From Antedon mediterranea (Eukaryota > Echinodermata > Crinoidea > Comatulida > Antedonidae): DNA of 64,000 nt. The translations under genes and the position numbers were made by a program. The stretch lies in NCBI RefSeq assembly GCF_964355755.1, contig NC_092670.1, positions 17,111,201-17,175,200 of the forward strand, in the 5' to 3' direction. Shown in pieces: positions 26,772 through 60,400 of the stretch. The notes beneath the pieces were generated by a model. That model was not told the DNA's origin. It did not search any database and was given only the letters and a program-made list of their open reading frames with translations. Every line of letters starts with the position of its first letter. Positions within the stretch are counted from its first letter, which is position 1.

Positions 26772-26838
26772 AGAGAAGCCTTATGTATTTGAACATTGTG
26801 AAGAAAAGTTTAGGGAGAAACCAGGTTTAGCTGAACAT

Positions 26839-29178
26839 ATGAGGACACATACTGAAGAGATGCCTTATGTATGTGAACATTGTGAAGAAAAGTTTAAAGA
26901 AAAACAGGATTTAGCTGAACATATGAGGGCACACACTGCAGAGATGCCTTATGTATGTGAACATTGTCAGGACAAGTTTAAAGAAAAACAGGATTTAGCT
27001 GAACATATGAGGACACATACTGAAGAGATGCCTTATGTATGTGAACATTGTGAAGACACATTTAAAGAAAAACAGGATTTAGCTGAACATATGAGGACAC
27101 ACACTGCAGAGATGCCTTATGTATGTGAACATTGTGGAAAGAAGTTTAAACAAAAAAACCGTTGGACTAAACATATCAGAATACACACTGGTGAGAGGCC
27201 TCATGTATGTGAACATTGTGGAAAAGATTTTAGATTAAAATCTGTCTTGAATCAACATATTATTAACTTACACACTGGAGAGAAGCCGCATGTATGTGAA
27301 TATTGTGGAATGAGATTTAGATTGAAATCAATTTTGAGTCGACATATGGGCAAACATGCTGAATGGAGGCCTCATGTATGTGAATATTGTGGAAAGAAGT
27401 TTAAACATAAAAACCGTTGGACTAAACATATCAGAATACACACTGGTGAGAGACCTCATGTATGTGAACATTGTGGAAAAGATTTTAGATTAAAATCTGT
27501 GTTGAATCAACATATTAGCATACACACTGGAGAGATGCCTTATATATGTGAACATTGTGGAAAGAAGTTTAAACATAAAAACCGTTGGACTAAACATATC
27601 AGAATACACACTGGTGAGAGGCCTCATGTATGTGAACATTGTGGAAAAGATTTTAGATTAAAATCTGTGTTGAATCAACATATAAGTATACACACTGGAG
27701 AGAAGCCGCATGTATGTGAACATTGTGGAATGGGATTTAGATTAAAATCAATCTTGAGTCGACATATGGAAAAACATGCTGAAGGGAGGCCTCATGTATG
27801 TGAATATTGCGGAAAGAAGTTTAAATCAAAATCAACCTTGATTGTACACATTAGCATACATACTGGAGAGAGGCCTTATGTATGTGAATATTGTGGCAAG
27901 CACTTTAAACACAAACACCGTTGGACTAAACATATCACAATACACACTGGTGAGAGGCCTCATATATGTGAACATTGTGGAAAAGGTTGTAGATTAAAAT
28001 CGGGGTTGAAACGACATATGCAAATACACACTGGTGAGAGGCCTTATGTATGTGAACATTGCGGAAAAAAGTTTAGTACAGGTCAGAATTTAAAAAGACA
28101 TATTTTGATACACACGGGAGAAACACCTTTTCAGTGTAAATTTTGTGATAAGAAATTTAATCGAATGGTTTTGATGAAGACTCATGAAATGGGACATACT
28201 GGAGAACGTCCTTTTCAATGTGAAGTTTGTGGAAACGGATTTAAAGAAGCAAGTAAATTAAAAAGACATTTAAAGTTGCATACAGATGAAAAGCTAAACA
28301 AATGTAAATATTGCGAAAAGGAATTTAAAGAATATCATAGTTTGAAGAATCATTTGGAGGAAATACACAATGGACAAGCTCTATTTGAATGCTCAGTTTG
28401 TGGAAAGAAATGTCATTCCAACACATCATTAAAATTGCATTCAAAAACCCATACTAGAGAGTCATTAACTATTGAATGTGAACATTGTGGTAAGGCTTCT
28501 TCTGAGAAAAGTACTAACATGCTGTCACACTCCATTACAGATTGTGATGAGTCACCAATTAATTGCCAACATTGTGGAAAGCAATTCACCGAGAAAAGTA
28601 AGAAATTTACAGAGTTACTCTTTTTTTGTGAACATTGTGGGAGAAATTTCAAACAAAAAACTGGTCTAAAAGCACATTTAAGAATCCATACTGGAGAGTT
28701 GCCATTTGATTGTAAATATTGTGGGAAGAAATTTAGGCAATCCTATGCTATGTATGTACATTTGAGGATTCACACTGGAGAAAAGCTATATGTTTGTGAA
28801 ACATGTGGAAAAAGTTTTTACACCAAAGGCAATTTGAAAAGACATTGCAGGATACATACAGGAGAACAACCCTACGAATGCAAACAATGTGGAAAGAAAT
28901 TTAGTCAACGTACTGCATTAAAAGTTCATTTGAGGGTTCACACAGGAGAGACACCCTATGCATGTGAACATTGTGGAAGGAAGTTTAAAGACTATAAATG
29001 TTTTAAAAAGCATTTAGCATTACACAATACAAATATGGCTAGTCATTCAAGTTCTACCTTTTCAATAAGTATGTCTAATTCTGCTCATTGCATTAATGAT
29101 TTTCATTCTTACATTGTGTGGTTTTTAAGCACTATTTTCATGTTGGGCATGATTCTGCTGATTATAAAAATCATTTAA
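26839..29178 (+). CDS. C2H2 zinc-finger protein 1, about 24 intact fingers, hydrophobic C-terminus
   Basis: A single 779-residue open frame. The first ATG in frame is itself inside a finger; an in-frame TAA lies at 26755. I count about 26 finger units, of which two (around residues 545-590) are degenerate. The first three are near-identical acidic fingers (CEHC..KFKEKQDLAEHM) with E-M-P linkers. Later ones alternate FKxKNRWTKH and FRLKSVLNQH types with canonical TGE-K/R-P linkers. The last finger is followed by a serine-rich stretch and a strongly hydrophobic end, YIVWFLSTIFMLGMILLIIK, resembling a tail anchor. No KRAB, SCAN, BTB or ZAD domain is seen. C2H2 proteins usually bind DNA, but the acidic fingers make that doubtful for the N-terminal part. 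The 3' half is nearly identical in DNA to locus 2. Confidence 0.8.
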   Translation: MRTHTEEMPYVCEHCEEKFKEKQDLAEHMRAHTAEMPYVCEHCQDKFKEKQDLAEHMRTHTEEMPYVCEHCEDTFKEKQDLAEHMRTHTAEMPYVCEHCGKKFKQKNRWTKHIRIHTGERPHVCEHCGKDFRLKSVLNQHIINLHTGEKPHVCEYCGMRFRLKSILSRHMGKHAEWRPHVCEYCGKKFKHKNRWTKHIRIHTGERPHVCEHCGKDFRLKSVLNQHISIHTGEMPYICEHCGKKFKHKNRWTKHIRIHTGERPHVCEHCGKDFRLKSVLNQHISIHTGEKPHVCEHCGMGFRLKSILSRHMEKHAEGRPHVCEYCGKKFKSKSTLIVHISIHTGERPYVCEYCGKHFKHKHRWTKHITIHTGERPHICEHCGKGCRLKSGLKRHMQIHTGERPYVCEHCGKKFSTGQNLKRHILIHTGETPFQCKFCDKKFNRMVLMKTHEMGHTGERPFQCEVCGNGFKEASKLKRHLKLHTDEKLNKCKYCEKEFKEYHSLKNHLEEIHNGQALFECSVCGKKCHSNTSLKLHSKTHTRESLTIECEHCGKASSEKSTNMLSHSITDCDESPINCQHCGKQFTEKSKKFTELLFFCEHCGRNFKQKTGLKAHLRIHTGELPFDCKYCGKKFRQSYAMYVHLRIHTGEKLYVCETCGKSFYTKGNLKRHCRIHTGEQPYECKQCGKKFSQRTALKVHLRVHTGETPYACEHCGRKFKDYKCFKKHLALHNTNMASHSSSTFSISMSNSAHCINDFHSYIVWFLSTIFMLGMILLIIKII

Positions 29179-29623
29179 ATATTATAAGTAATATAAATAT
29201 AAACAAGACCAATAACAAAATATTTAAAAAATCCCTGTACTAATACTACAATGATTTTTTTTGGAAAATAGGCCAAATATTAATTTATAACCAATTTCTG
29301 TATTACCGTATGTCATATTTCTAAATTTTTTAGTTGGCTTTCAAGATTCAATAGGGAGCCTTGCGATTTGCGACAAAAAACAACCTAACTATAGGTTATG
29401 TCGATTCATTGTGCATGTTGGGAATTTGGGACATGCTTCCTTGGTCAACACCTCAACCCGGTACTACTGTATTGGTGGTTCTAGATCCAGAAAACAACTA
29501 ATTCCTCCTCGGTCGTTTTTTTTTTACAAATCCACATTCAACTTACACAATTTAATACAGATATCTAGTACGACACAATAAATGCTTCATTGCCTAAAGA
29601 TATATTCATATTTTTTTTTCCAG
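29179..29623. other. intergenic/intronic sequence between zinc-finger loci
   Basis: No exon is recognised. A polypyrimidine tract and CAG ending at 29623 form the acceptor for the next locus. The first exon of that locus was not found here and may lie farther upstream. Confidence 0.4.
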
Positions 29624-32100
29624 TTAATGACAAGAAGATTTCTAATGAAGATGAACTATATACAGTTGGTAATGATATGAAAAATTGTTTGCCAAAGGTA
29701 AAAGAAACAGACGAATCTCAGGAAGTTGAAATTTGTCTGGATTCAGAGCAAATACAAATTATAATTTATGAAAACTTTCAATTATTTGAAACAGCGATGA
29801 GTGAAAAAGAACAGAATACAAACAGCCTAAACAAAGATACCTGTATTTTGAATAGTCCAATAGAAGGCAGAGAAATCATTGGCGAAAGTGAGCCTAGAAG
29901 TAATGATGACAACACTTGCATGGATGACACTAGTAAAACAACTGAACAGTACAATACAAATTCAACAGCAACAAAATTCTTGAAAGAAGAAGAATGTGAA
30001 TATGATAAAAATCCTGCTAATGATAGACAATTGAAAATGCAAACAAAAATTTCACACGAATTCGAAGTACAAAATGAATATCAAATCCAGGTGTGTGAAC
30101 AAGAGGAATTGAGTCTTGAATCCCACATGAGAGTACAGATAGAGGAATTACCTGAAAATATTAGGAACCATACTGACGAGATGCCTTATGTTTGTGAACA
30201 TTGTGAGGACAATTTTAAAGAAAAACAGGATTTAGCTGAACATATGAGGACACATACTGAAGAGATGCCTTATGTATGTGAACATTGTGAGGACACATTT
30301 AGAGAGAAACAGGATTTAGCTGAACATATGTGGACACATACTGAAGAGATGCCTTATGTATGTGAAGAAAAGTTTAAAGAAAAACAGGATTTAGCTGAAC
30401 ATATGAGGGCACATACTGAAGAGATGGCTTATGTATGTGAACATTGTGAAGACAAGTTTAGAGAAAAACAGGATTTAGCTGAACATATGAGGACACACAC
30501 TGCAGAGATGCCTTATGTATGTGAACATTGTGAAGACAAGTTTAGAAAAAAACAGGATTTAGCTGAACATATGAGGACACATACTGAAGAGATGCCTTAT
30601 GTATGTGAACATTGTGAAGACAAGTTTAGAGAAAAACAGGATTTAGCTAAACATATGAGGACACACACTGCAGAGATGCCTTATGTATGTGAACATTGTG
30701 AAGACAAGTTTAAAGAAAAACAAGGTTTAGCTGAACATATGAGGACACATACTGACGAGATGCCTTATGTATGTGAACATTGTGAGGACAAGTTTAAAGA
30801 AAAACAGGATTTAGCTGAACATATGAGGACACATACTGACGAGATGCCTTATGTATGTGAACATTGTGAGGAAAAATTTAGAGAAAAACAGGATTTAGCT
30901 GAACATATGAGGTCACATACTGCAGAGATGCCTTATGTATGTGAACATTGTGGAAAGAAGTTTAAACAAAAAAACCGTTGGACTAAACATATTACAATAC
31001 ACACTGGAGAAAAGCCTCATATATGTGAACATTGTGGAAAGGATTTTAGATTAAAATCGTTCTTGAATAAACATATGAAAATACACACTGGAGAGAGGCC
31101 TTATGTATGTGAACATTGTGGACAGAGGTTTATTACAAGTCATAATTTAAAAAGACATATTTTGATACACACAGGAGAAACACCTTATCAGTGTAAATTT
31201 TGTGATAAGAAATTTAATCAATTGGTTGTGATGAAGACTCATGAAATGGGACATACTGGAGAACGTCCTTTTCAATGTGAAGTTTGTGGAAACGGATTTA
31301 AAGAAGCAAGTAAATTAAAAAGACATTTAAAGTTGCGTACAGATGAAAAGCCAAACAAATGTAAATATTGTGAAAAGGAATTTAAAGAATATCATAGTTT
31401 GAAGAATCATTTGGAGGAAATACACACTGGACAAGCTCTATTTGAATGCTCAGTTTGTGGAAAGAAATGTCATTCCAACACATCATTAAAATTGCATTTA
31501 AAAACCCATACTAGAGAGTCATTAACTATTGAATGTGAACATTGTGGTAAGGCTTCTTCTGAGAAAAGTAACATGCTGTCACACTCCATTACAGATTGTG
31601 ATGAGTCACCAATTAATTGCCAACATTGTGGAAAGCAATTCACAGAGAAAAGTAAGAAATTTACAGAGTCACTCTTTTTTTGTGAACATTGTGGGAGAAA
31701 ATTCAAACAAAAAAGTGGTCTAAAAGCACATTTAAGAATCCATACTGGAGAGTTGCCATTTGATTGTAAATATTGTGGGAAGAAATTTAGGCAATCCAGC
31801 AGTATGCATGAACATTTGAGGATTCACACTGGAGAAAAGCCATATGTTTGTGAAACATGTGGAAAACAATTTTACAAAAAAGGCAATTTGCAAAGACATT
31901 GCAGGATACATACAGGAGAACAACCCTACGAATGCAAACAATGTGGAAAGAAATTTAGTCAACGTACTGCATTAAAAGTTCATTTGAGGATTCACACAGG
32001 AGAGACACCCTATGCATGTGAACATTGTGGGAAAAAATTCAAGGATTTTAGTAGTTGTAAAAAACATGTGTTATTGCATGTTAAAAAGCTCCAGATATAA
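29624..32100 (+). CDS. C2H2 zinc-finger protein 2 (main exon; 5' exon not identified)
   Basis: The exon begins after TTTTTTTTTCCAG and enters with two bases of a split codon. Reading continues V-N-D-K-K-I-S-N-E-D to the TAA at 32100, about 825 residues. The first internal ATG in frame is at 29677. About 170 residues of acidic, finger-free sequence precede the fingers. Nine near-identical acidic fingers (CEHCEDKFKEKQDLAEHMRT) follow, joined by T-E/A/D-E-M-P linkers; the third has lost its second cysteine (YVCEEKFKEK). Ordinary fingers come next, with two degenerate units in the same place as in locus 1, one finger with its last His changed to Arg (KLRTDEKP), and a short basic end. The role is probably nucleic-acid or protein binding in the nucleus. 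A polyadenylation signal AATAAA lies at 32330-32335. Confidence 0.85.
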
Positions 32101-33096: not shown

Positions 33097-34327
33097 ATGG
33101 CTATGGAAGAAGATTCTGAAATCAATGTTGAAATAGGTAAAGTTTATATTTATATGCATATTTTATTATTTGTTATGGTTACATTATATATGTCCTATTT
33201 AAATATCAATAAGCATTTTACATATTGTTTTATTTCATAAATACTGTACTGCAGTTGTTCTTTTTCAGGTTACTATAAAGAATATATTCGGATTGATGAA
33301 GAAGGCTCAGATGAAGAACTTGCAGAAGAAAGTAATGAAGATAATTTGGTAACTAATAAAACTGGATTTATTTATGCTCAAAATAAAGATGGTGAAAAAT
33401 GTATTGATGATTGCAAAATGCAAAAATCTGTAAAATTGATAGAAGACAATAGTGAAGATGAAATGATGTATAAATGTGAACATTGTGCACAGAATGTAGA
33501 TTTAAATACATTAAGAGTTCATTTGGGAATTGAAAGAGAAAAAATGCAATTTGAATATGAATTTTGTGGAAAGGTATTTGATCATGAAAGTAATTTAAGA
33601 ATTCATCTTAGAAGGCATACTGGAAAGATACCATATGAATGTAAATACTGTAGAAAAATTTGTAATAAACTTACTGATTTGGAAAAACATATACGGATGC
33701 ATACAGGGGAAACACAATATGAATGTGAATACTGTGGAAGGACGTTTAATAGGTTTAGTCATCTGGAAAGGCATATAAGAATACATACTGGTGAAACTCC
33801 ATTCAAATGTGACTATTGTGAAAAGAAGTTCCAACGCAAGAGCTATTTGAAAACTCATATGATGATACATACAGGTGATTCACCACATGTCTGTCAACAT
33901 TGTGGAAAGAAATTTATCCAGAAGTGCAATTTAAGAACACACTTAAGAGTACACACTGGGGAAACACCATTCTAATGTGAACTATGTGGCAGAAAATTTA
34001 AAAATAATAGTTATTTGAAAACACATATGATGATACACACAGGAGAGACGCCATTTGAATGTCAGCAGTGTGGAAAGAAATTTAGCAAAAACAGCAATTT
34101 GAAAAGACACTTGTTAATACATACAGGGGAGACGCCTTATAAATGTGGAGATTGTGGGAGAAAATTTAATCAAAGGCAATTTAAATGCCCATTTGATTTT
34201 ACATACAAGAGAAACGCCTTTTAATTGTGATATTTGTGGCAAGAAATTTGGACAAATACCATATTTAAAAGCTCATTTAAAAATACATAATAAAAATTCT
34301 ACAGCAGCATTAGTGACATGTACATAA
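33097..34327 (+). pseudogene. C2H2 zinc-finger locus 3, disrupted
   Basis: Exon 1 (33097-33136, M-A-M-E-E-D-S-E) ends at a GT donor. Exon 2 starts at 33269 after TTTTTCAG with a compatible phase and an acidic stretch (DEEGSDEELAEESNED). Fingers follow, the first two eroded (the second has Tyr for its first Cys: FEYEFC), then four good ones. A TAA at 33973-33975 interrupts right after HTGETPF. The same frame then continues with further fingers until it is lost near 34178, where sequence reading NQ-KGNLNAH is split by a length change of -2 or +1. The last finger is read in another frame to 34327. The intact part could still make a roughly 250-residue protein, but the locus is broken relative to its ancestral length. 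Confidence 0.8.
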
Positions 34328-36701: not shown

Positions 36702-39700
36702 TCAGTCAAGTAGCTGCATATTGATCATTTCCCATTGTTGCGTCTTGTGACCATTGCATGGTTTCACACTTGGTTCATCGTGAGCCTTTTCTGATGTATC
36801 CAAGCATAGTCCACTGCTATGTTTCAATTCTTTGGTCTGAAAACAAGAATAACTCAATGAAAGGAAATAACCATGTCTGATGAAGACCATGTACAGACAT
36901 GCAAAGGTACAGTATAAAATAAGATAGCATAAGAAATAATAAACAACAACTATCTCATCTCCACGCTACTGTATATATCGGTGTATAGTATATAAATAAT
37001 TCACATTTATTCAACAGGTAGTTCATTCATTAATTTATATTACTTATTAGCCAAGCCGTTCAGGCATTTGATAGAGCTACTTGCTTTAGAGCTACTCCGA
37101 CTTTTAACTAGTAAACTCTCCCAATACTGGACTCTCTCTCAAAACCAGTCCAGAAGGTCCCAAATTTTTCTTAATCATTAAAAACACATTCTGAATATCA
37201 GACTTTACAGAGAGGTGTCAGTTATTGGGAGAGTTGACTGTACAATTACTGAAAATATACCATCATGGTTTTTTTCATCTGCTCTGATGGTACAGTACAA
37301 TCAATAGTAAATTTCATATATTGAACATTTTCCTTATTAATTCACCCATTCATTCTGTTAATAAATTGTTCCTATTCATTGGGTGTATTATTAGGTGCAG
37401 GTTGTGTAGACATAGGTATAGGTTTATAGGAGACTCAACAAAAAATATTAATGTATACTGCAATATATTCACCCATGTCTTGCGCAATATTTGTTTAATT
37501 TGTACCTTAGTTGATTATAGTAAGTCTACATTAACTTAACTAATACTACAAACTAAATGATACCTGTTGGTAGCAAGTATTTTCACCAACTTTGTTTACA
37601 TTCAGTCATTAGTAATTAGTTCTAAACTCATTCCTCTATGGTGTAACTTATTAAATAATATTTCTTGTATATTCAGGTTGCTTTGTAAAATAAATTGCTG
37701 TCATCTACATACAGTGCAAGTTTGGGAGTTGCTGGAAGGTGGCAAGCAGTGAGGGGAAAGAATAATTAAATTAATAATTTCAGCCAAAGAATGCAAGAGA
37801 AGTGTAGCTTTTGCATGCAGAGTGAATTTAAAAAAAAAAGCAACATAAATGAAGATGCAGTGGAGCAAAAGAGTGCACCTAACATCGCTCTCACCTCTTG
37901 AAAATAAGTCCACTTTTGCCTTTCCTACATTGAAAAATAATTTGTATATTATTTTTGTGCTTATTTCACAAAAAGGATAAAATACCCTTATTCACTATGC
38001 AGACACGCAAAAACTTAAGTCGCGGAAACATAAACATAACAAATAAAAGTCCATGCCCAATAAAGTAGGATCAAGGAAAGAGAGTCCAAATCTAATCTAT
38101 CAAACTATCTGTTTTCCTTATCTCCTTTCATACCTGTTAAGGCCAATTTACACAGATGAGCTGCAACGGTAATAAAAATATGGAATCTACATGGTTTTTC
38201 GCTTATTGAATTGAATTGAATTGAAATTTATATTTATACTGGGTAACCTCTTCAGTCAAAGACTGGTCTCCCAGAGGGCCCAGTTGGTGATCAGTGGCTG
38301 TGATGTACTAATACACCGGGGTAACCCCCTACTCGAAAGATGTACTAGGTTCTTTAAAGTGCACACGAGCTAGATGTGTACACTGGACCTACGGTTTATA
38401 GTCCTTATCCGAGAAGACTCGTTCTACCACCAGAACCATGGAGTGAGTGAGCATCGAACCCCTGCCGATGTTATGGCTACGTAATTACGGTTCCACTGTC
38501 TTAACCGCTCGGCCACTCACTCACTTATTGTTACCGCTCGTTTGTGTAAATTGGCTTTTAAACTGTGTCTACACTATCAAACTAGTTTGACGAAACAAGT
38601 GCCCAAATATAGTAGTGGTATGCCATATATGGGCACATCACATGTCACATAAAGCATAGAGATATTATAGTGAACATAATATCTCTATGCATAAAGTTTG
38701 ATTTGCTCACTCTATGAAGATATTATTTTTATCAATTGTATTAGCTAGTACAGTATGTCAAAAATGTGCCATGAAAAAAGTTAGCGACATTTAACCTTTA
38801 CATGTACCTGCCACAGCAATACATGTGTTGAATTAAGTTAAAAAACAAATAATTTTAGATTGAAATAGCCAATCTGTTTGCTATTCATGGAAATTAATAG
38901 CAACACAAAGTACAGTATAGATTTCCTGCTGTAAAAATGAATAGTTAACAATGTGTGTAATGATACTTAATATTAAATGAGATTTTCAATTATAAATTCA
39001 GACTAATTAAAGCTATATGCGTTAAGTGCATGGAAGCATAAAGCATTAATGGTGAATGGAAACATTGCACATATTAACTAGAGCATTAGGCATTCAATCA
39101 AAAGTAAGCATGATAGAAAATTAATGTTTCATGTATTTCATATCTTGTTTCATGCTTTTATAATTGACTAAAACTGTATACAGTAGTAACATAACCTAAT
39201 TCCACAGTCCACAAAACAGAATAGCAAGGCTGTCTAGCTTGATAACACATTGAATAACAAAGTTATATAGATAGAGTTCTCCACAATACATTGAATATCT
39301 AGCAGAATAGCAAGGCTGTCTAGCTTGATAACACATTGAATAACAACGTTATATAGATAGGGTTCTCCACAATACATTGAATATCTAGCAGAATAGCAAG
39401 GATGTATAGATAGGGTTCTCCACACATTGAATATCTAGCAGAATAGCAAGGCTATATAGATAGGGTTCTCCAAAATACATTGACTATCTAGCAGAATAGC
39501 AAGGCTATATAGATAGGGTTCTCCACAATACATTGACTATCTAGCAGAATAGCAAGGCTATCGATAGAGTTCTCCACAATACATTGACTATCTAGCAGAA
39601 TAGCAAGGCTGTATAGATAGGGTTCTCCACAATACATTGACTATCTAGCAGAATAACAAAGCTATATAGATAGGGTTCTCCACAATACATTGACTATCTA

Positions 39701-42700
39701 GCAGAATAGCAAGGCTATATAGATAGGGTTCTGCACAATACATTGACTATCTAGCAGAATAACAAGGCTATATAGATAGGGTTCTGCACAATACATTTTA
39801 TCTAGCAGAATAGCAAGGCTATATAGATAGGGTTCTCCACAATACATTGACTATCTAGCAGAATAGCAAGGCTATATAGATAGGGTTCTCCACAATACAT
39901 TGACTATCTAGCAGAATAGCAAGGCTGTATAGATAGGGTTCTCCACAATACATTGAATATCTAGCAGAATAGCAAGGCTAAATAGATAAGGTTCTCCACA
40001 ATACATTGACTATCTAGCAGAATAGCAAGGCTATATAGATAGGGTTCTCCACAATACATTGAATATCTATAATATATAATATATAATACCAGATTTATAT
40101 AGCGCCCTTTTCATGAGTAATCATGCTCAAAGGCGCTTTACAAGCATTATTACCCCAGTATTTTTTGGGATCAAACACGTATGGAAACATACTCCCATAA
40201 TGCAGCCGGTAACCAGCGCAGTTGTGTCTAGATCTAACTGGGTACCCCATTTATACACCTGGGTGGAGAAAGGCAACGTAAGTAAAGTATCTTGCCTACG
40301 GATACAAGCAATGCGGCGAGAGTTGGATTCGAACCTAGGTCTGACGATCGGTAGTCCAACGTCCAACACACTGCGCCACACGCCCTCACCATCTAGCAGA
40401 GTAGCAAGGCTGTATAGATAAGGTTCTCCACAATACATTGACTATCTAGCAGAATAGCAAGGCTATATAGATAAGGTTCTCCACAATACATTGACTATCT
40501 AGCAGAATAGCAAGGCTATATAGATAGGGTTCTCCACAATACATTGACTATCTAGCAGAATAACAAGGCTATATAGATAGGGTTCTCCACAATACATTGA
40601 CTATCTAGCACAATAGCAAGGCTATATAGATAGGGTTCTCCACAATACATTGAATATCTAGCAGAATAGCAAGGCTATATAGATAGGGTTCTCCACAATA
40701 CATTGAATATCTAGCAGAATAGCAAGGCTATATAGATAGGGTTCTCCACAATACATTGACTATCTAGCAGAATAGCAAGGCTAAATAGATAAGGTTCTCC
40801 ACAATACATTGACTATCTAGCAGAATAGCAAGGCTATATAGATAGGGTTCTCCACAATACATTGAATATCTAGCAGAATAGCAAGGCTATATAGATAGGG
40901 TTCTCCACAATACATTGAATATCTAGCAGAAAATCAAGGCTGTATAGATAGGGTTCTCCACAATACATTGACTATCTAGCAGAATAGCAAGGCTAAATAG
41001 ATAAGGTTCTCCACAATACATTGACTATCTAGCAGAATAGCAAGGCTATATAGATAGGGTTCTCCACAATACATTGAATATCTAGCAGAATAGCAAGGCT
41101 ATATAGATAGGGTTCTCCACAATACATTGAATATCTAGCAGAAAATCAAGGCTGTATAGATAGGGTTCTCCACAATACATTGACTATCTAGCAGAATAGC
41201 AAGGCTAAATAGATAAGGTTCTCCACAATACATTGACTATCTAGCAGAATAGCAAGGCTATATAGATAGGGTTCTCCACAATACATTGAATATCTAGCAG
41301 AATAGCAAGGCTGTATAGATAGGGTTCTCCACAATACATTGAATATCTAGCAGAATAGCAAGGCTGTATCGATAGGGTTCTCCACAATACATTGACTATC
41401 TAGCAGAATAGCAAGGCTAAATAGATAAGGTTCTCCACAATACATTGAATATCTAGCAGAATAGCAAGGCTATATAGATAGGGTTCTCCACAATACATTG
41501 AATATCTTAGCAGAATAGCAAGGCTGTATAGATAGGGTTCTCCACAATACATTGAATATCTAGCAGAATAGCAAGGCTGTATAGATAGGGTTCTCCACAA
41601 TACATTAACTATCTAGCAGAATAACAAGGCTATATAGATAGGGTTCTCCACAATACATTGACTATCTAGCAGAATAGCAAGGCTATATAGATAGGGTTCT
41701 CCACAATACATTGAATATCTAGCAGAATAGCAAGGCTGTATAGATAGGGTTCCCCACAATACATTGAATATCTAGCAGAATAGCAAGGCTATATAATAGA
41801 AACTGTAAAAGATAGCTAGGAATAATCACATTGACTTTCGAGAAAGCAATATAGCAAGGCTGTAAAGGTAACCAGGTATTTCAATATTAAAGCGACTATC
41901 TAGCAGAAGGAAAAATAGCAAAGCTAGAAAGGTAACCAGGTATTTCAATAGTACAGTAAATTGACTATCCAGAATGAAATTACAGTGACTATCTAGCAGA
42001 ATGCAATTTAGCAATGTTGGGTAGCAAAGAATCTGAAAATTACATTTTAAGCAGAATGTGTAGATTAGTACAGTGACTTATGCAGTAATTTAGCATAGCT
42101 GTAAGTTAGTAAGTCGCCTAGAAGTACATATAGCCGAAAGTAATTTAGCCAAGCGAAAGGTAGCCATGTCTCCTAGAAGTACATTGACTATCTAGCAAAA
42201 GGTAGCCATATCTCCTAGAAGTACATTGACTATCTAGCAAAAGGTAGCCATGTCTCCTAGAAGTACATTGACTATCTAGCAAAAGGTAGCCATGTCTCCT
42301 AGAAGTACATTGACTATCTAGCAAAAGGTAGCCATGTCTCCTAGAAGTACATTGACTATCTAGCAGAAGGTAGCCATGTCTCCTAGAAGTACATTGACTA
42401 TCTAGCAGAAGGTAGCCATGTCTCCTAGAAGTACATTGACTATCTAGCAAAAGGTAGCCATGTCTCCTAGAAGTACATTGACTATCTAGCAGAAGATATA
42501 TTAAAGTAGTAGGCGAGTAATATTAGCAGTACAGTGACCAACAATCACCCTACATATTATTATGTAGATTGTAAAAATAATTCTGTCTGTATACCTGTTT
42601 ATCATAGGACCATTTCTGATTACCACCTTGTTGATGGCATGACAACATCATTACTGGTCCTGTGTGTGCCACATCTAGACAGGAATCATCATGTTTTAAT

Positions 42701-45700
42701 TCAAAGTTCTTTGTAAAAGCCCAGATCTGAAAAAAGATAGTATCAAGTAAGAACAGAAATCATTTTTTCCTCCTCTTTTGTATACCATACATAATGTGTG
42801 TTTGAAAGAAGATCAATAAATAAATGAATTAAGTATCGATACAAATTAAAATGAAATGATACCTGGTTACCCCCTTGACCATGGCAAGCATAGAGGCCAA
42901 CTTTATGACCTGTGTCTCTCATCATAGTATCTAAGCATTGGTTTGTCTCTACGTTTCGAATCTTTAAAAAAAAAAGCTTAATAACAGTTTGCTCAAGACA
43001 TTTAAACTCAACATATGGTATTATATATATATATGATATATACTGTATATTGTTAATATTTAAAAAAACTAAATTTTAACTTAATTATTTATTATAGTCT
43101 ATCAATTTTAACTTTTAATGAAATGGATATGTAATTTGACGTTTTAACAAAAATATCTTTATGCATTGTTTTCTGTAGAGTGCCTATTCAAGTCAGCTGT
43201 ACTGGTAAGTGCATCTGTTAGACCTAGAGTATACCCTTGCAAAAAAAGAAATAAAATATAAAAATAAAAATAAATAAACAAATGCTATTTACCTCACCCA
43301 TACTGAAGAAATTAACAGGCCACGATGACTCTGGGTAAACATTCTCTAAATACCATTTAAAGGATTTACAATTCAGACTTTTCCTAAGGTTATGACGTTC
43401 TGTAAGATCTCCTGGATCGGTTTTGGCAACTGATGGCGCTATTCTATAATAAAAATTCTTGTATTCATCAAGCCATACTTCCGCTAATCTTCGATTATTT
43501 TTATTTACATAATTTGTGCCTGGAGGAAAGTGATATGGTGACTTCTTCCTAAAAACATGGCCTACGTGAGAGCATGGAACAAATTCCAATGTGCCTCCAC
43601 ACATCCATATCTAGGAAAATTACAAGAAAAAGAACAACTATGCATTAATTTCATGAATTAAACTGTCAAAACTGCCTAAATTAGTATTTTTTTCTCTCAG
43701 TAATAAAATGCAGTTTGTTTATACATTGGTTCAAATAACATAAAAACTAATACTGATATTCTTTATTGTCCATAGTAATACAAAATGGAAATAAATATAA
43801 ATTTCAATCAATCAATGAAATATAAAAAAGAAAAAAAAAGATGTACAAATTAAAATAATAACAACTAAATACACAAATATACAGATGTAAGTATAGACTA
43901 TTAGAATATTGATATTAACTATCATTAATCTTACTTTAAATGAAAGTTCAAGATTCTCTCCTCCCCATATATCAAAACCTGGATCATACCGCCCAAGCTC
44001 TTCAAAATAATCCTTAGAAATGGCAAAAAGACCACCAGCCATTGTAGGAGACCTATAAAAATACAACATTTTTAAGAAATTAACATTTATGATCAAAATA
44101 TATAATAACAGTTAAAAATTGCCTTTACAAGAAATTCTGGTTACATTGATTAAAATTAAATTGATTCAGCTGTACAGTAGATATAGCTATTATATTATTA
44201 TTATTATATCAATAATTTATAAAGCGTCAATTCAAAATACAGTAGTAGAATCCCTCCCCACCTATTCAAGGGACACTTATATTAAGGGGACATTTTATGG
44301 TTGAACGAAGAGTATATGTTTTTACCACTATGACCAACCCTTATTCAGGGGGACACTTTTCAGTGTCCTGAAGATGCCCCCTTAATAGAGGTTCTACTGT
44401 ACAAGAAAGTGGACAAAAGGTAAATTAAACCAAAACACATGGTTTTATGGAAATTTAGGTTTTCATCATGCTTTTACGAAAAGGAATAAAAACATCAGGA
44501 AAGCAAACGTAATAAAATATATTCCGGTATACCAAACTGAAACTAAATACATTGATTCTATGATTAATGATGTTTGCCTTATACAAATAATTATTTAATG
44601 AATTATGAAAAATAGATAAAGAATAAATGTATGCTTTTTCCCAGTAAATCACTTTCCTATTTGCAACAAAGATCATTAATTTGTAATTATCATTAAAGAA
44701 GCAACAAAAATAGTATTAAAAAGAAAATTAAAATGCATCCTTAAAGCAGATCATTGAATCTATATAAAATATCATTAATATTCAAAATAACTATTAACTC
44801 TATTCCTATAGGACTAGTAGCTTGACAGATTATCCAATAATATGACACTATATGTAATTTGCCTCTGCATACACTCTAGAATAATTTGACACTTTTGAAT
44901 TACAATTTTATAGAAGAAAAAAAATTGTAAAAGGTTTTTTTAAAAATTCATAAGTGTCTGAATATTTTGATGTATTTTTACACTGAATTTCTTCCACATT
45001 TAATTTCCAACATTAAATGGAAAAATAACATTCGGTGGCTTTACAGACAAAATAATATATCAAATTAAAATAGCAAATTCATGCAGATACATAAACATAC
45101 ACCAACACACATGGCAAACAACATGCTTTAGTTCAATGCACTTGGTTGCCAAATCATTAATAAAAAGAAGTTACATTTTTATACAACATAAGCCAGTAGC
45201 CAGTAGCTTTATTTGGTGGGGTTCGTTTTGCCACAAGTTATGCCAATTATAAGGCCTATACCATCACTTCCGCTGTTATTTAGTTTGAAAAAGGTATGTG
45301 AGGACAAAGGCTGATTTAATTGAACCCTCAACCCCAACTGGCTATGGGCTTTAGAGGAAATTCCTTGAAGGTATGTTACTGAACAAATTATAAAATCTAT
45401 ATTAGTACAATTAATATAGAATAGTTTGTATCAAGAAGAGTAAAAGACATTGTTAAAATAAAAAACTTAAAAAACAAATCTATAAAACACATGATATTAT
45501 TAAGTTTTTGATAATTAGACCTCCCGACACTCCAAGTCGTGCGGAAATTTATTCTCTTAAAATGGGAATTTTTACAAAATAGTATGAATAAACAACCAAT
45601 TTTGTGTGTTTTAGTTGATAAAAATCAACCATCGGAACAAAACAAAAATTGTATATAAAAATAGACATATAAATGTCTATTTTCATAAATTCCAATTAAA

Positions 45701-48700
45701 TTTTCATTAATTTTCTGTAGTATCAGATTTTACAGTATATTACATCATCTAATTACATTTTTCCTTGTAAGTAGGGAGGTCTGGATACATGGATATGGTT
45801 ACACAATAAATACTTGATGTTAATAACACAATTATTAAGGCAAGAAGAGAACATTTAATAATGTACAGTAGAATGAGGAATGATTATTAAATGTGCATTA
45901 CCATGCCTGTAATTTTAACATATTATGTTACTAAATACAAGCTTGGTCATAATGTTACTGCAGTTGACTGCATGCAAGAGATTCCTCCTATCGCTTCAAT
46001 TTATAAGACATTCAGTCTATTGGTCTGAGTCTCTATCTTGTGGTTATTTGTTATTTTTTAGACATGCCAAAACTTCCAAGAATGATGCACAAATCAAGTT
46101 ATTTATTCCCGATTCAGGACTATTGTCAATGAATTTGTATATTAATAAAAACAAATTAGACAGAATTAAGGTTCTCCAACCAGCTTGAAGAAAACAAAAT
46201 GTTGTGCAATATTAGTTTGTTTGTGCTCATTTCATTCTGTCAACATGCCATAGAATGCAGGCCCAGGTAAACAGCTGGCCTACCTAACAGGCTGGGTCGG
46301 GTCACCTTTTCGTCGTAATGCTTCTCGTTTAGGGACACCGTACCACTTGAAAAATAAGGACCAACCGAACCCGCCCATCTGCGGGTCATTCCCGTGTTGA
46401 TAACCGAAAGTCTCATCACTGATTACATCAATAACAGGACAAACTGCAATTGTTCTGAATGAAGAAAAGAAATTATGTTTTACAAGAAAATCAACGAGAC
46501 GTAACCCTTGGGATGATGATGACGGCCGTTCTTGATATCCTATGAGAAAAACAAATTTGTAGTTAGTGGAAGGTAACAAATACAGTAGTCACCTCGTGTG
46601 ATAATACTGCTGCCTTACCTTACGGGTTCGGTGGGATCACCATGACGTCTTGTTTGTTCTCTTCTCGGAATTGCATGCCAGTTGAAGAACAAAGACCAGC
46701 TGAAACCACCAACCTGAGGGTCACCCGTGTGACCACCATATCCAAATGTCTCATCACTTATTACATCTATTACAGGACATACAGATGTCCTCCTACAGGT
46801 TAGAAATATTTTACACTATAATTATGCTTTTTAACAATTACAGTGGAGTCCTTTTAAAGTAGTGTTTTAGATCATTGTTTACTTTTTAAAACAATGGCTT
46901 TAGCTTAAGGTTTTTGTAAATTGCTAAAACTGAAAATCGTCAGAGATAATTTGTCTAAGACATTCCTTTTGCACGGTACGAGTATAAACTGTAAAGGTTT
47001 GTTGATGTTAACATAGTATTAGTTTCAAGCTTAAATTACAAATATTAGGGTTAGCTGTTCTGGAATTTTGCAACAGTGGATATGCTATGCTGTCACTGAT
47101 CCCTATACAGATTTCTAAAAACAACTTGGAAGAAAATTAAGCATTAGTAGAATATAAACAGTCTGGGAAGCTATTTTGAAATTCAATTAGTACTGTTGAG
47201 CCTAAATGGAATTTTTAGATGGCATTGGACATGCTTTCTATTACAAATCTACCCAAAAAATGTCAAATAAAGAAAAGGCCCAGACTAAGGACTTAAACAT
47301 GGTTCCAGGCATACGATACCATATAAAATGGTTTCAGATGTAATAAATTACCATATAATGGTTTTAAATACCATATATAATTGATTCAATGGTTTAAAAA
47401 TGTGGTGATAAAGGTTAAACTTTCTAATTACTGAAAACAAGTACAGGCAATGTTCGTAAGATAATTTTGACTTTCACCACTTGGTGCTATTATTAATATA
47501 CTGGTAATAATTGATACAGTATATGATAAATAAAAAGGACTTTAAATCTAGTGATACAGTAGGATAACATAATTTGTTTATTGAATTATTAAACTCAATT
47601 TTTCATTTAATTACAGTATGTAATAATGATCACATTACCTATCAGCGTGTATCCTTGCCAACAGTGGTTCTAACCAGCCTTCTGTAACTTCGCAATGGGA
47701 ATCGAGAAACGTAAGTACATTTCCTTTTGCAACGTCTGCTCCTCGCATACGCGCTCGTATCAATCCGGCACGTTTTGGCATTCGTTGTATATTAACGGAC
47801 ACCGGTAACTTAGCAACATAGTTTTCTAATTTCTTGCCAAGGTGATCTGAAAAATAAAGCCAAGTGTTGTTAAGTGTCCGATGCAAATATTTTGTTTGCC
47901 TAAAACGTCAATTAAGCAATGTGCCGCTTGCCTCGATTAGAATCAGTAAATTGTGATTTCCTATTAACAAGGTGTACCAAATCTATAACCCCTCGAAGAA
48001 ACAATGACAAACTAATCAATTTTTCAGAAATATTCATCATTAAGAAACAATATTCATTTAAATTTCACTGATGCACAACTGAACAAATAAATAAATTACT
48101 GAATTCTTATCCTAGTGTGTGCCATATGGTCGAAACTCACCAGTTTAAACAATTTTTTAAATGCTAATTACTGTACAGTCACTGTACACAGCTGTTTTAA
48201 GGAAAACAACTTCTTTTCAAAATACTATCACCATATGAAAGCTTTCAAACAGCAGGGGGCATTGAAATTTTATTTTAGGATACAAAATAGAATAAATGTT
48301 GTATATCTATTAATAAAACTCCATAATCTCCAATTTTAGTAAGCTAGGAAAAAGTCAACAGAACATTAAATACAAAATGTAATTTTAGTAATATCTTACC
48401 ATTTGTATCTATTTCATATGCTTCATTATTAATAATTTAAATACTATTTTTTTTAAACTTATACCATGGTATTGTACAAAGAATGAAATCTTTATGCAGT
48501 AATATATATATTTGCATCATGCATCATAATTAATTAAAATAAAGATTACATACCTTGATCACTAGCATCATCAACTAGAATAATTTCTCTTAAAAGGTCT
48601 CTAGGTGAGCGATTAATGATACTGTGAACATTGCGCAACAACGTGCTCCATGCTTCATTATGATAGACCAATATCACACTTGTGTCTGGTAAATTCTTAG

Positions 48701-50554
48701 AGTAGACTTTGTCCCGACATCTGAAATTAATTTGATTACATTTTTATGACATAATTTAAATTATCTAAAAATTCTTTTAAAAAGTTCTAATCAGTTCTAA
48801 TCTATTACTAGTATACAAATAATGAATGTTTATGAGTGCAATGGTACAAATAATGGCACGAAGTGAATGATGAAAGGTTATATCAACGAGGCAAAGCCGA
48901 GTTGATATAACCTTTCATCATTCACCAAGTGCCATTATTTGTACCATTACACGAATACAAAACATTCATTATTTGTTTTATATAACATCTAGACGTTGAA
49001 TAGTGCGTACTATTGCACGCCATGTGACCCACATTCGTCCAATCAAATGACAGGAATTTATATAGGTGTTATATAATATTGTTTATTTAATGAATGGATG
49101 GTGGATATTTAAATAGAGGTTGTACCATTTAATATCTGTTCTGAATGTGTATTGTGCTGTCACATAATCTCAAGTCTCTCCACGTGGCAACCATTCTCAA
49201 TCATTGATAATAGCATTGTTTTATCTTTTTGCACATGTTGCCACTGATTGAGTTAACATTAACAATGGATTGGTTGACAATTGTTTTCTCTCCACGTGGC
49301 AAACCTATTTCACAAACTAATCAATAATTTCTAAAGAATTTAATGCACACCAGGACAGAATGATTAATTCTGCTTGACTTAATACGAGTATCTGTAGTAT
49401 ATTATTGGAAACTATATATTAAAAGGTTATATAGTAATAGTAACAATATTCATACAAGTAAATTTTAGTACAGCACTTGTTTTTATTTGGGTTATTAACG
49501 ATGACTTCTGAACAGATGTGTAATATGATATCATACTGTAGATTATCTTTTAAGCATACTAAAATATAGATATAATTATATATACTAAAGAAATGTAACT
49601 AAATGGCAATCTGTATAATAATTATAATGACTGACAAATCAAATACTGCAAAATAATTTACAGTATTCTTTACATTATTACATTTTTTTTTTTGACATTT
49701 TTTACAGCAAAACTGAATACCTGATTTGTTTTTTTACCATAAAGTACAGTATACATACCATGGAGGAAAAAAAAAATGTTTTACCTCCATGATACATACT
49801 GTACATATTTTAACATTTAAATCACTCATCCATGTGAGGTCAGATTCAAACAATGATTTGAGTACACTTACTGTCTTGGACGGACATCAGGTAACGTTCT
49901 ATTTAGTGCAACTCTGTCGCTTGCCATTAAATTAAATTCATTTATCTTAAAAAGTCTGTCTGACTCTGCTTTATTTTCTTGTTCTATGATTACTGGCTTT
50001 CCCATTTCGCCAGGTGCATCTAAGTTGATTTGGCGTGGAACATCTAAAGAGAAGGCAATTATTATTTTGCTTCTTAAAATTAAGAAACAGTACCTGGAAT
50101 AATACTACTTCATAAGATAAGTTTACTGTACTTAATTATTAACAATAATAATTTGTTAAGCCAATACTTTTTACGAAGCCCTTTGAATTTTGTTTGTCTC
50201 AATTGTTTTTTAGGTCTAGGTTACTTTAGGCTAGAGGCTTTTTAAATCATTCATACCATCAAAATGGTCTCCCATATTTTTCTAGTTGTCTCCTCTATCA
50301 TAATTCTTAACAATAAGAATGTATTCAATCTTTAGATTCTTACCTATTTGTTTTTTATCTTCTGGTTTTCTATATACCCATTCATTTGCATTCTCAACAA
50401 TACGTTTCACTAGATTGGGATCGTTTTCACTTGCTTTTTTGCATGTAGGTCCTATACAAGGAGCAGAGTAGTACAGTACAGCCACTACATCAATAAAAAC
50501 CCAGATCATAGAGGTTGCAATGATCAACTTACACTGTCTCCTTTTCGAAATCAT
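36702..50554 (-). CDS. GALNT1/13: polypeptide N-acetylgalactosaminyltransferase, GALNT1/13 type, complete, 10 exons plus an alternative exon
   Basis: Exons: 50554-50344, 50043-49872, 48720-48554, 47846-47639, then either 46792-46619 or 46454-46284, then 44052-43935, 43610-43293, 42961-42863, 42726-42595, 36836-36702. The product is 577 or 576 residues (human GALNT1 is 559). It is a Golgi type II enzyme that adds GalNAc from UDP-GalNAc to Ser/Thr, starting mucin-type O-glycans. Visible features: a short basic tail, a membrane anchor at residues 9-31 ([20 protein letters not shown]), the GEMGKPV stem motif, the metal-binding DSH at 232-234, [18 protein letters not shown], and a ricin-type lectin domain (about 446-577) with three C-L-D and three Q-x-W motifs. 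N-terminal and lectin sequences match GALNT1/13 better than other GALNTs. A 5' UTR exon probably ends at the acceptor near 50608. Confidence 0.96.
37111..37242. mobile_element. MITE, family B, copy 2
   Basis: Ends AACTCTCCCAATACTGGA and TTATTGGGAGAGTTGACTGT. It shares GAAGGTCCCAAATTTTT with the copy at 16284-16425. Confidence 0.7.
38149..38558. mobile_element. MITE (family D) split by a SINE
   Basis: The left arm AAGGCCAATTTACACAGATG (about 38149-38185) pairs with the right arm GTTTGTGTAAATTGGCTTTT (about 38538-38558). The SINE at 38201-38530 sits between them. A likely related, uninterrupted copy is at about 55083-55245 (TTACCACTCTTCTGTG, AAATTGGTC). Confidence 0.55.
38201..38530 (-). mobile_element. 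tRNA-Ser/Leu-derived SINE, minus orientation
   Basis: The reverse complement starts AGTGAGTGGCCGAGCGGTTA, an A-box typical of Ser/Leu tRNAs, followed by a B-box-like GGGGTTCGATGC. It ends in a CAATT-type short repeat. CTTATTG flanks both ends as a 7-bp target duplication. Unlike a true tRNA it has a body of about 300 bp and no cloverleaf 3' half. Confidence 0.85.
38558..38712. mobile_element. MITE, family A, with internal 15-bp palindrome
   Basis: Starts TTAAACTGTGTCTACACTAT and contains GTGCCCAAATATAGTAG and ATGGGCACATCACATG. Near the right end a perfect inverted repeat, GCATAGAGATATTAT / ATAATATCTCTATGC with a 7-base loop, interrupts the CACATAAAG motif, which is duplicated on its two sides. 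Confidence 0.7.
39220..41797. repeat. 53-bp satellite with 212-bp higher-order periodicity, about 40 copies
   Basis: The unit contains CTATCTAGCAGAATAGCAAG and GGTTCTCCACAATACATTG. The marker variant GCTAAATAGATAAGG recurs with its core at 40781, 40993, 41205 and 41417, exactly 212 bases apart, and AAAATCAAGGCTG recurs at the same spacing. Four monomers therefore form a higher-order unit in the right half. The left half is less regular. The array is interrupted by a SINE at 40069-40395. It lies wholly inside the GALNT intron. Confidence 0.95.
40069..40395 (-). mobile_element. tRNA-derived SINE with L2-like tail, inserted in the satellite
   Basis: The reverse complement begins TGGCGCAGTGTGTTGGACG (A-box-like), has GGTTCGAATCC (a perfect B box), and ends GTAAAGCGCC...GGGCGCTATATAAATC, a tail type shared by many SINEs mobilised by L2-like LINEs. 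ATCTA on both sides may be a short target duplication. Satellite monomers continue on each side. Confidence 0.85.
42157..42496. repeat. 42-bp tandem array, about 8-9 copies
   Basis: The unit contains GGTAGCCATGTCTCCTAGAA and GTACATTGACTATCTAGCA, with AAAAG or GAAGG at the joint. The second half matches the junction ACATTGACTATCTAGCA of the neighbouring 53-bp satellite, so the two arrays share ancestry. Transitional sequence at 41800-42155 has isolated CTATCTAGCAGAA words. Confidence 0.95.
44239..44402. mobile_element. MITE, family C
   Basis: The left end TACAGTAGTAGAATCCCTCC and the right end GAGGTTCTACTGTAC are inverted repeats. The interior has AAGGGACACTTATATTAAGG and GGGGGACACTTTTC. Located in the GALNT intron between the alternative exons and exon 44052-43935. 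Confidence 0.7.
46284..46454 (-). CDS. GALNT1/13: GALNT alternative exon 5a (proximal to exon 6)
   Basis: 171 bp, flanked by TTCATTCAG and GTAGGC, entering and leaving in phase 2. It encodes [18 protein letters not shown], then [20 protein letters not shown] and GDPTQPVR. It is homologous to, and in the same phase as, the exon at 46792-46619. In known GALNTs this segment is in the catalytic domain between the DxH and WGGEN motifs. Only one copy is needed for a normal protein. The donor is weaker than that of 5b. Confidence 0.9.
46619..46792 (-). CDS. GALNT1/13: GALNT alternative exon 5b (distal)
   Basis: 174 bp, flanked by TAACCTGTAG and GTAAGG, also phase 2 to 2. It encodes [20 protein letters not shown], then [20 protein letters not shown] and GDPTEPVR. 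It is one codon longer than 5a. Both copies keep every residue expected of the segment (C-P-x-I-D-V-I-S-D-x-T-F, G-G-F, W, P-V-R) and neither has a stop, so both look functional. Confidence 0.9.
48816..48975. mobile_element. 160-bp near-perfect palindrome
   Basis: The left arm includes CAAATAATGAATGTT, GTGCAATGGTACAAATAATG and GAAAGGTTATATCAAC, and the right arm is its near-exact complement. The centre lies about GAGGCAAAGCCGAG. Located in GALNT intron 2. A shorter relative is at 55763-55865. It is most likely a MITE with almost no interior. Confidence 0.85.
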
Positions 50555-57482: not shown

Positions 57483-60400
57483 ATGGCTAGACCTATTGGA
57501 ACATTTTGTGGAAACTTGGCAATTGCTGCAACGTCATCGTTCGTTGTTCTTGGATTTGTGAGTTTTTTTCAATCAAAAGAAAAAGAGACGGAGTTGCCTA
57601 ACAACATTAAAGAAAAATTCACAACAGGTAGTCATCACTTTCTAAAATTTAAATAATATATTTGTATTTGTTGATCAAGAATGCATGATGTGTATGAAAA
57701 ATCGATTTACAATAACCCCTATTAAAGAGACACCATTAGGACCCAACAAATTAATAAGTTAATTATCCCCTGAATAGGAGTTTCCCCTGTGTAAGTTGGC
57801 CATAGTTTCCCTGCAATAGTGGTGTCGTATAGGCTGTACTGCAGTTAATAAAAATGTGATAATTTAGAATCAATAAAACAAAATTGATCGTATTACTTTT
57901 AGCTGATCCGCAAAAAATATCTCAAGGAGCCAGAATTTTGAAGTATGGTGCCCCAGAGCGAGGAGAAAATGTCTATTTTCATGCCAATCATGTATTGGGG
58001 TATAATCAAGCCAAAAGAATTCCTGACTGGGTAGCAGAGCACATCACAGGCGATCATCTAAAAGGTAATTGCAACAGGGCATTTTGGTTGTATGTCACTG
58101 GTTGGAGGTAGGCCTACACACCTAATTGGTGACAGTGGCTTTTGTGTTTTCTTGGCAGCTAGTGACTATGATTTTATATTTTCTTCTTGCGTCGTGTTTG
58201 TTTAATTTGTTGATTTGTATTATATTTTGTAAAATATACCTTTTGCCTGAATAAATAATAATAATGATTCCTTTTACACATGGGGTAATTCCATGACAAA
58301 TCAACCAGTGGCTTGGTTAAAAAATCACATTAGTTTAAAAGTTATGGCTGTTTAAAAATGAAGCAGGTCCACATTGGTCGCAAAATTTGTAATATTTTAG
58401 TATTTTTATTAAACAATAATTGTGAATTTTATTATTGGACAAGGCTAAAAAATGCTGACTGTAAATCAACATTCTATTTGTCACTTTTTTCACTTATTAT
58501 ATTTTTTGCTTAGGTTCAGCAACACGCAAGAAGTCAAACTTCAAAGAAGATTTGCAAATAGTCGACATATTCCGATCATCCAATAGTGATTACAAAAATA
58601 GTGGCTGGTCAAGAGGTCACATGGCACCTGCTGCAGATAGTAAATATAGCCAAGTACTTATAGTTCATTTATATTTCATTTAAATTGAATCAGTTATTTT
58701 TTAGGTGTTATATCCTATTGTAATTCCCTTTTTTTCATATATCCACTCTTCTTTTTGTATAGATTGTACAAAGTGTTACCAGTATTAAGCTCTATACTAT
58801 CAAACGTTATGTGACAACAAATTGTGATGTGCCCATATATGGACATGGACCACATTGTGATGTGCTCATATATGGACATGGACCACATTGTGATGTGCTC
58901 ATATATGGACATGGACCACATTGTGATGTGCTCATATATGGACATGGACCACATTGTGATGTGCTCATATATGGACATGGACCACATTGTGATGTGCTCA
59001 TATATGGACATGGACCACATTGTGATGTGCTCATATATGGACATGGACCACATTGTGATGTGCTCATATATGGACATGGACCACATTGTGATGTGCTCAT
59101 ATATGGACATGGACCACATTGTGATGTGCTCATATATGGACATGGACCACATTGTGATGTGCTCATATATGGACATGGACCACATTGTGATGTGCTCATA
59201 TATGGACATGGACCACATTGTGATGTGCTCATATATGGACATGGACCACATTGTGATGTGCTCATATATGGACATGGACCACATTGTGATGTGCTCATAT
59301 ATGGACATGGACCACATTGTGATGTGCTCATATATGGACATGGACCACATTGTGATGTGCTCATATATGGACATGGACCACATTGTGATGTGCTCATATA
59401 TGGACATGGACCACATTTGGGCACATCACAGTTTTTTTTGTCAAACTACATTAGTTTGATAGCATAGAGGGAGCTTTAGTGGAAATCATTTAATAGTATG
59501 TGTTTACCTTTTCAGATAGCAATGGATGAAACGTTTTTATTGTCTAATATTGTTCCACAAGACATCAATAACAATCAACATTTTTGGAATCGTTTTGAGA
59601 TTTACTGCAGAAGCCTAACGCAAACATTTCATGATGTTCGTGTTATTAGTGGGCCTCTATTTATTCCAACAGTTGAAGAAAATGGCAAATTATTCATAAA
59701 ATATGAGGTAGTATTCAAACCACTGTTGTATTTGAGTCACAAGAACATTAGTACAACTACACTTAAAATACAAAGAAATGACTCAAATGAAGTTATAAAC
59801 AATTGAACCTTTAGTAGAATATATTTTCAAGTATAGTTGAAGAGATAGGGATTGGGAGTAAGGGATCCTACTGAACTCCACACACTACACAATGCTATAC
59901 ATCAGGATTTCTACTCTATACATAGCACCTACTGCACATAGTACCCATCCCAAAATAATCAACCTTACTCCTAAATATATCTGAATCTACCCTCGATCTC
60001 GATCTTAGAACTCTTTTTGCCTCCATGCTCTCAGAAAAACAACTGCTAGTTGAGCCAAGTTTTCGTGTTTAAATAAAGCATATTATTATTATTATTACTG
60101 TACTTACTAAACCAGCAGTAGCACCCGGGCGTGTGGTACGTTTGATGTGTGGTGTATAGTTGGACCATTCTAAATAAACAAATTCGTATTTACATTAATC
60201 TTTTGTAACTACACACTACTTTATTTACAGGTAATTGGTGTAAATCAGGTTGCTGTTCCAACTCATTTGTACAAGATTGTTGTCATTGAAAATACATTTG
60301 ACAAAATGGTAGCTGTTGGTGCATTTATTGTTCCAAATCAACCTATCACCGGTTCAGACCTTGCCAACTATCAAGTTTCACTTGATGATCTAGAGAAAAA

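Follow-up and report, generated by a model that had tools for sequence, protein, structure and literature searches.

Two tandem versions of an acceptor-groove exon in a GALNT1-like gene of the crinoid Antedon mediterranea

It is an open question how acceptor sites are apportioned among the numerous GalNAc-transferases that an animal has, and exon pairs that alter part of the groove in an otherwise identical enzyme are natural swap experiments. A candidate pair of this kind was pointed out in Antedon mediterranea, in a window of 64,000 nucleotides (NC_092670.1, positions 17,111,201 to 17,175,200), which is the whole stretch of DNA analyzed here. According to the original prediction, made from the sequence alone, two adjacent exons, which we call E5a and E5b, encode the same segment of the catalytic domain of a polypeptide GalNAc-transferase (GALNT) and are apparently mutually exclusive, so that their choice could tune peptide specificity. 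The locus raises the question of whether the two exons are indeed alternative versions of one segment, and whether each excludes the other. For enzymes differing in E5a or E5b, specificity would be assignable directly to a segment of 57 residues.

The gene lies on the minus strand, from a start codon at 50554 to a stop at 36702, and has ten coding positions, the fifth one being double (Table 1). Its identity as a GALNT, a family numbered GT27 in CAZy, was borne out: the product is GALNT1-like and has the full ppGalNAc-T domain architecture, with a type II anchor (N-terminal helix at residues 4-30), a GT2-type catalytic domain, a Glyco_transf_7C part, and a ricin-type lectin domain. PF00535, PF02709, and PF00652 scored above the cut-off in all three of the proteins P0002, P0005, and P0001. 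The metal-binding DxH motif (LDSH) and the WGGEN motif are both intact in the spliced product, and an alignment of 29 proteins showed no variation in the columns of D232, H234, and W340-N344. When the duplicated segment was excluded from the tree (midpoint root, with long-branch warnings), the gene fell into an ambulacrarian GALNT1-like clade (96/95). This clade was nested in a group of 19 rows that also comprises GALNT1/13 and PGANT5 (82/93), the inner branching of which was not settled. The starfish and the acorn worm each have an additional member outside the ambulacrarian clade (P0018 and P0022).

The intron between exons 9 and 10 contains two tandem arrays, at 39338-41799 (53-bp unit, ∼46 copies) and 42152-42495 (42-bp unit, ∼8 copies). 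The same intron also contains a 30-nt stretch (37924-37895, minus strand) with AG/GT borders that is open in frame; this is a possible lectin-domain microexon and could explain another NCBI isoform.

Table 1. Exons of the Antedon GALNT1-like gene (positions in the window) and other proteins with tandem copies of the same segment
Feature or species	Position or protein	Strand	Segment copies	Basis and remarks
Exon 1, coding part (start codon, cytosolic tail, membrane anchor)	50344..50554	-		Splice model; splice products are P0002, P0005, and P0001
Exon 2 (stem)	49872..50043	-		Splice model
Exon 3 (catalytic domain start)	48554..48720	-		Splice model
Exon 4, ending after LLARIHAD, with DSH metal motif	47639..47846	-		Splice model; donor TAG/GTAATG, score 5.0
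Exon 5a (E5a), acceptor-groove segment version 1, 58 codons	46619..46792	-		Alone in X5 (P0002); with 5b in X2 (P0001)
5a-5b intron, 164 nt	46455..46618	-		CTAAC 56 nt and TTGAT 128 nt from 5a donor; AG at position 79 unused in models seen
Exon 5b (E5b), acceptor-groove segment version 2, 57 codons	46284..46454	-		Alone in X6 (P0005)
Exon 6 (SPTMAGGLF...WGGENLE)	43935..44052	-		Splice model
Exon 7 (catalytic flexible loop and linker)	43293..43610	-		Splice model
Exon 8 (first lectin exon)	42863..42961	-		Splice model; Ricin_B_lectin PF00652
Exon 9 (lectin)	42595..42726	-		Splice model
Exon 10, last coding exon including stop	36702..36836	-		Splice model
Pinctada imbricata (bivalve)	P0009		Two	Gene model
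Liolophura sinensis (chiton)	P0011, 'isoform X2'		Two	Gene model
Blattella	P0122		Two	Gene model
Timema bartmani	P0012		Two	Gene model
Ephemera	P0013		Two	Gene model
Timema monikensis	P0015		Two, first partial	Gene model
Armadillidium nasatum (isopod)	P0121		Four	Gene model
Diaphorina citri (psyllid)	P0010; P0123, P0124		Five in P0010; P0123 and P0124 each have another version	Gene models

E5a (174 nt) and E5b (171 nt) were found at the coordinates predicted, separated, as had been claimed, by an intron of 164 nt. Both begin with the third base of a codon and end in the same phase, have AG/GT splice sites, and contain zero stops. The peptide differences quoted earlier (GGHTGDPQ in E5a versus QHGNDPQ in E5b) were also correct, E5b being shorter by one residue. 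The reading of the two exons as alternative versions of one catalytic segment was supported, with 69% identity at the protein level (tblastn E value, ∼6e-27) and a blastn E value of ∼2.8e-15 for the DNA within the window. The same residue is encoded in 40 of the 57 aligned codons, and 32 third positions differ. When 55 random base changes, matching the number of bases by which the two exons differ, were made in E5b (2,000 trials), at most 32 residues stayed unchanged and a stop was gained in 85% of the trials. A chance likeness was rejected on the basis of the E values and these trials.

No third copy stood out in the neighboring introns, the rest of the window gave chance-level matches only, and no significant extra copy of the segment came out when introns 4, 5a-5b, and 5b-6 were searched with a profile. 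The possibility that the AG at position 79 of the short intron precedes a decayed third copy was rejected, given that shuffles scored as well in 51 of 500 cases versus E5a and in 473 of 500 versus E5b.

The pair shows coding constraint: synonymous sites are saturated (pS of 0.81) with a dN of 0.21, and both exons look to be under selection. The matching segments of Anneissia japonica and of a sea urchin share 90% and 86% of residues, respectively, with E5b, and both share 73% with E5a. Given the saturated synonymous sites and these identities to other echinoderms, the pair looks old. The lower identity of E5a to Anneissia, together with its poor acceptor tract (see below), would fit a dying or rarely used exon that has been kept by chance. 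We consider this very unlikely, however, in view of the low dN at saturated synonymous sites, the absence of stops, the retention of the V, F, and W contact residues, the best-scoring donor of the gene, and the presence of E5a as the sole version in NCBI isoform X5.

For a date of the duplication, the segment offers 58 columns. The GLY6 and Glandiceps rows, which had long branches, were removed before the topology tests, and EquusT12, from which no segment was obtained, is absent from the segment trees. The tests rejected none of the origins compared, with p-AU values of 0.21 for an Antedon-only origin, 0.32 for a crinoid origin, and 0.27 for a hemichordate grouping. In the best tree of these tests, E5a was placed outside the other echinoderm segments, with support that is not firm (35/81). 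E5b grouped with Anneissia in a 20-row segment tree (85/91), and an 18-row tree left the grouping open. At four columns, the residues of E5a (V, S, N, and H) are also those of the hemichordate Ptychodera, and the remaining echinoderm sequences contain M, G, K, and either Y or F, a pattern that suggests, without proving, an ancient split.

A search of related species had been proposed with the original prediction. The feather star Anneissia has one listed model, which is short (527 amino acids) and E5b-like. An E5a-like segment outside Antedon was not found among 6 matches from 8 candidates, where E5a itself occurred in only two records, both from Antedon (P0001 and P0002), a point against the reading favored below. 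Within Antedon, a search for the family gave 19 matches, 8 of them as loci. Among these eight, only the gene in the window carries the segment twice; the other seven showed a single copy or parts of it within the 1.5 to 10 kb covered.

To which extent the two exons are used singly can be judged from the protein models. Three splice products of the gene were identical, letter for letter, to NCBI proteins of A. mediterranea, taken as predicted models from their 'isoform X' naming. Isoform X5 (P0002, 577 amino acids) contains E5a only and isoform X6 (P0005, 576 amino acids) contains E5b only, in agreement with the predicted single-inclusion proteins. Isoform X2 (P0001, 634 amino acids) contains E5a and then E5b in series. 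P0001 represents a cluster of four sequences, one of which was examined, and the clusters of X5 and X6 have one sequence each. Mutual exclusion, as suggested in the original prediction, is unproven and is contradicted by one NCBI model; in its strict form it is not supported, because X2 requires a 46619-to-46454 junction. The double form may be the commonest one or an artefact of model building. The prediction concerning the reading frame was confirmed, as E5a alone gives 1,734 nt, E5b alone gives 1,731 nt, both give 1,905 nt, and neither gives 1,560 nt, all of them in frame. Therefore, a frameshift cannot police the choice of exon.

The splice signals were then compared, donors being scored with a matrix against a set of 847 GT sites. 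The E5a donor (AAG/GTAAGG) had the top score of the gene, 11.7, at the 99.8th percentile of the set, and the donors of E5b and exon 4 scored 8.6 and 5.0, respectively. In the acceptor tracts, 9 of 17 positions were pyrimidines for E5a and 14 of 17 for E5b. The value for E5a is weak evidence of regulation, since exons 3 and 6 also have 9 and show no alternatives in the models seen. A strong E5a donor followed by a strong E5b acceptor tract is a layout that would invite E5a-to-E5b joining, and nothing visible in the sequence would bar it. It had been suggested that the short intron favors steric or RNA-structure control. The fold of the 164-nt intron was ordinary (z of -0.35; 67 of 200 shuffles as good), as was that of a 621-nt region (z of -1.0; 4 of 20 shuffles as good). 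Folds within the range of the shuffles led us to reject RNA-structure control. Steric exclusion as the sole cause was rejected as well, the branch-point-like CTAAC and TTGAT being located 56 and 128 nt, respectively, from the E5a donor. The suggestion is accordingly not favored, and recognition of the E5a acceptor may conceivably be the regulated step.

These data bear on two other readings of the locus. Splicing might be strictly mutually exclusive, with the NCBI double model being an annotation artefact. Single-inclusion models exist for each exon, and tandem duplicated exons of animals are described as often being used in this manner (PMC9741552). Nevertheless, this reading is unlikely considering the double-inclusion model with its cluster of four sequences, the lack of policing by frameshift, and the absence of an unusual fold or an evident steric block. 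Alternatively, double inclusion might give the main product, the single forms being minor, in accordance with the larger cluster of X2 and with the top-scoring E5a donor ahead of a strong E5b acceptor tract. Isoform numbers, however, follow length, not abundance. Also against the dominance of the double form, no second copy was flagged in 222 of the 236 proteins retrieved in our searches, and in an AlphaFold model of this form the first copy was predicted to be unstructured (block means of 21 to 30). The latter argument is weak, because a low score of the first copy is expected when the relatives in the alignment pair with the second one. On balance we regard dominance of the double form as quite improbable.

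We hold it somewhat probable that the fifth coding exon underwent an old tandem duplication, which gave rise to alternative groove modules that are used singly and partly together. The exon of the GALNT1-like gene would have been duplicated long ago into E5a and E5b, and selection would have kept the two as alternative modules between the DSH and TMAGGLF motifs, a segment that would be part of the acceptor-peptide groove. Transcripts with E5a alone or E5b alone would produce two Golgi enzymes of normal length with slightly different groove surfaces, and some transcripts would carry both exons. In the double form, the 57 added residues might protrude as a loop, and the activity of this form may be reduced or absent. 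The simplest determinant of exon choice would be the efficiency with which the E5a acceptor is recognized, rather than exclusion by steric or RNA-structure effects.

The location of the segment on the acceptor side was corroborated by comparison with GalNAc-T2. The contacts of this enzyme with the peptide are mainly hydrophobic and involve Val255, Leu270, Phe280, Trp282, Tyr284, Phe361, His365, and Phe377, and the change of Trp282 or Phe361 to Ala almost abolishes activity (PMC4432651). Five of these eight contacts (V255, L270, F280, W282, and Y284) map into the exon 5 segment. The V, F, and W contact residues are identical in E5a and E5b, and the two versions differ at neighboring positions, namely, 275 (S/G), 281 (N/K), 283 (H/Y), and 285 (I/V). 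At the position of Tyr284, E5a has Ala and E5b has Gly, and at that of Leu270 they have Pro and Gln, respectively, an assignment that varies with the placement of the one-residue gap. The coded segment carries a net charge of -2 in E5a and of 0 in E5b, and contains three histidines in the former and one in the latter. Thus, the core of the pocket is kept and its surroundings differ, and tuning of substrate specificity by the choice between E5a and E5b is plausible. By the same token, the most important peptide-binding residues are identical, and so specificity may hardly differ. A model of the E5a form superimposed on the mouse GalNAc-T1 chain 8v9q (60% identity) with TM scores of 0.83 by query length and 0.96 by chain length. 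In this segment, block-mean pLDDT ranged from 67 to 95, with the minimum at residues 271-280, corresponding to the GGHTGDPQV loop.

Alternative exons are known in other members of the family. As described in a preprint (PMC12776162), the isoforms PGANT5A and PGANT5B of fly pgant5 are swapped at residues 398-457, comprising the flexible loop and helix I-turn-helix II; their substrate preferences are unlike, largely due to one residue, and their expression in the salivary gland also differs. Like this Drosophila gene, described there as the GalNAc-T1 orthologue, the Antedon gene is of GALNT1 type and has two versions of a catalytic segment of the acceptor groove, each giving a full enzyme. Unlike in pgant5, the Antedon segment lies upstream, from DSH to TMAGGLF, and the flexible loop is encoded by the single exon 7, so the Antedon pair is not a swap of the PGANT5 type. 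Fly pgant9 has an alternative exon 8A/8B (PGANT9A/B) that alters both substrate preference and the charge close to the active site (PMC6115407). It is likewise an alternative exon in a ppGalNAc-T, but what is swapped in pgant9 is a lectin alpha repeat and not a part of the catalytic domain.

The paper on tandem duplicated exons mentioned above includes GALNT13/Pgant5/gly-5 among the families concerned, in vertebrates, arthropods, and nematodes (PMC9741552). The segment is not named in that passage and may be the same one as in Antedon; a search for the term 'echinoderm' in this source gave no hit. The Antedon pair has two of the properties of such substitutions, being adjacent homologous exons of the same phase with proteins (models) that contain either one alone; isoform X2 carries both.

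Models of PGANT9-like proteins from several other arthropods were found to contain tandem copies of the catalytic segment duplicated in Antedon. The segment profile was run on 236 proteins pooled from three homology searches, the two large ones contributing the best 120 of 1,490 and the best 120 of 1,638 proteins, the latter out of 7,991 scored candidates. This set is biased, because the queries included the tandem Antedon and psyllid forms and the best rows only were kept. Two or more copies were flagged in 14 of the 236 proteins. P0116, P0125, and P0128 were set aside, their matches having the appearance of an insertion, a repeated whole domain, and a split match. The remaining eleven proteins belong to nine species, Antedon included (Table 1). 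The repeat unit extends approximately from GWLEPLL to GGFDWxL in the arthropod models, from LEPLL to DPVR, DPIR, or DPMR in the molluscs, and from just past LLARIHAD to PVR in Antedon.

The genes with tandem segments sit in different clades, the joining of the molluscs with PGANT9 carrying a long-branch warning. From these protein models we infer at least three separate duplications of one region; the tandem copies could also have arisen when pieces were joined during gene prediction. Among the 130 segments from 120 PGANT9-like proteins, there is one version with hardly any variation, and the remaining versions have diverged. Clastoptera P0131 contains one diverged version alone, as expected of an alternative exon, a pattern that would look alike if the species had that version only. 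The PGANT9-like models of Diaphorina citri comprise at least seven versions of the segment, with net charges from -7 to +6 (excerpts of 31 to 38 residues), and these versions constitute a candidate exon array.

We tentatively propose that the groove segment between DxH and TMAGGLF may be a recurrent target of exon duplication, possibly in a crinoid GALNT1-like gene, arthropod PGANT9-like genes, and a mollusc relative, with differing unit limits, giving exchangeable groove surfaces. If so, the choice of exon, besides the number of genes, would widen the glycosylation specificity of animals, and independent duplication in several phyla would mean that selection points to a part of the enzyme that governs the choice of substrate. 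The tandem duplication of this segment in arthropod PGANT9-like and mollusc models is apparently new. In titles and abstract openings of the open-licence literature on GALNT or pgant and mutually exclusive splicing or exon duplication, neither the duplication of the segment nor the arthropod and mollusc copies were described.

Elsewhere in the window, a short tandem repeat at 58715-59467 leaves several frames open on both strands, with repetitive open reading frames of more than 200 residues, and is likely not a gene. On the plus strand, long open reading frames at 26758-29178, 29569-32100, and 33241-33975 are rich, by eye, in C2H2 zinc-finger repeats, and the three apparently form a local cluster of zinc-finger genes.
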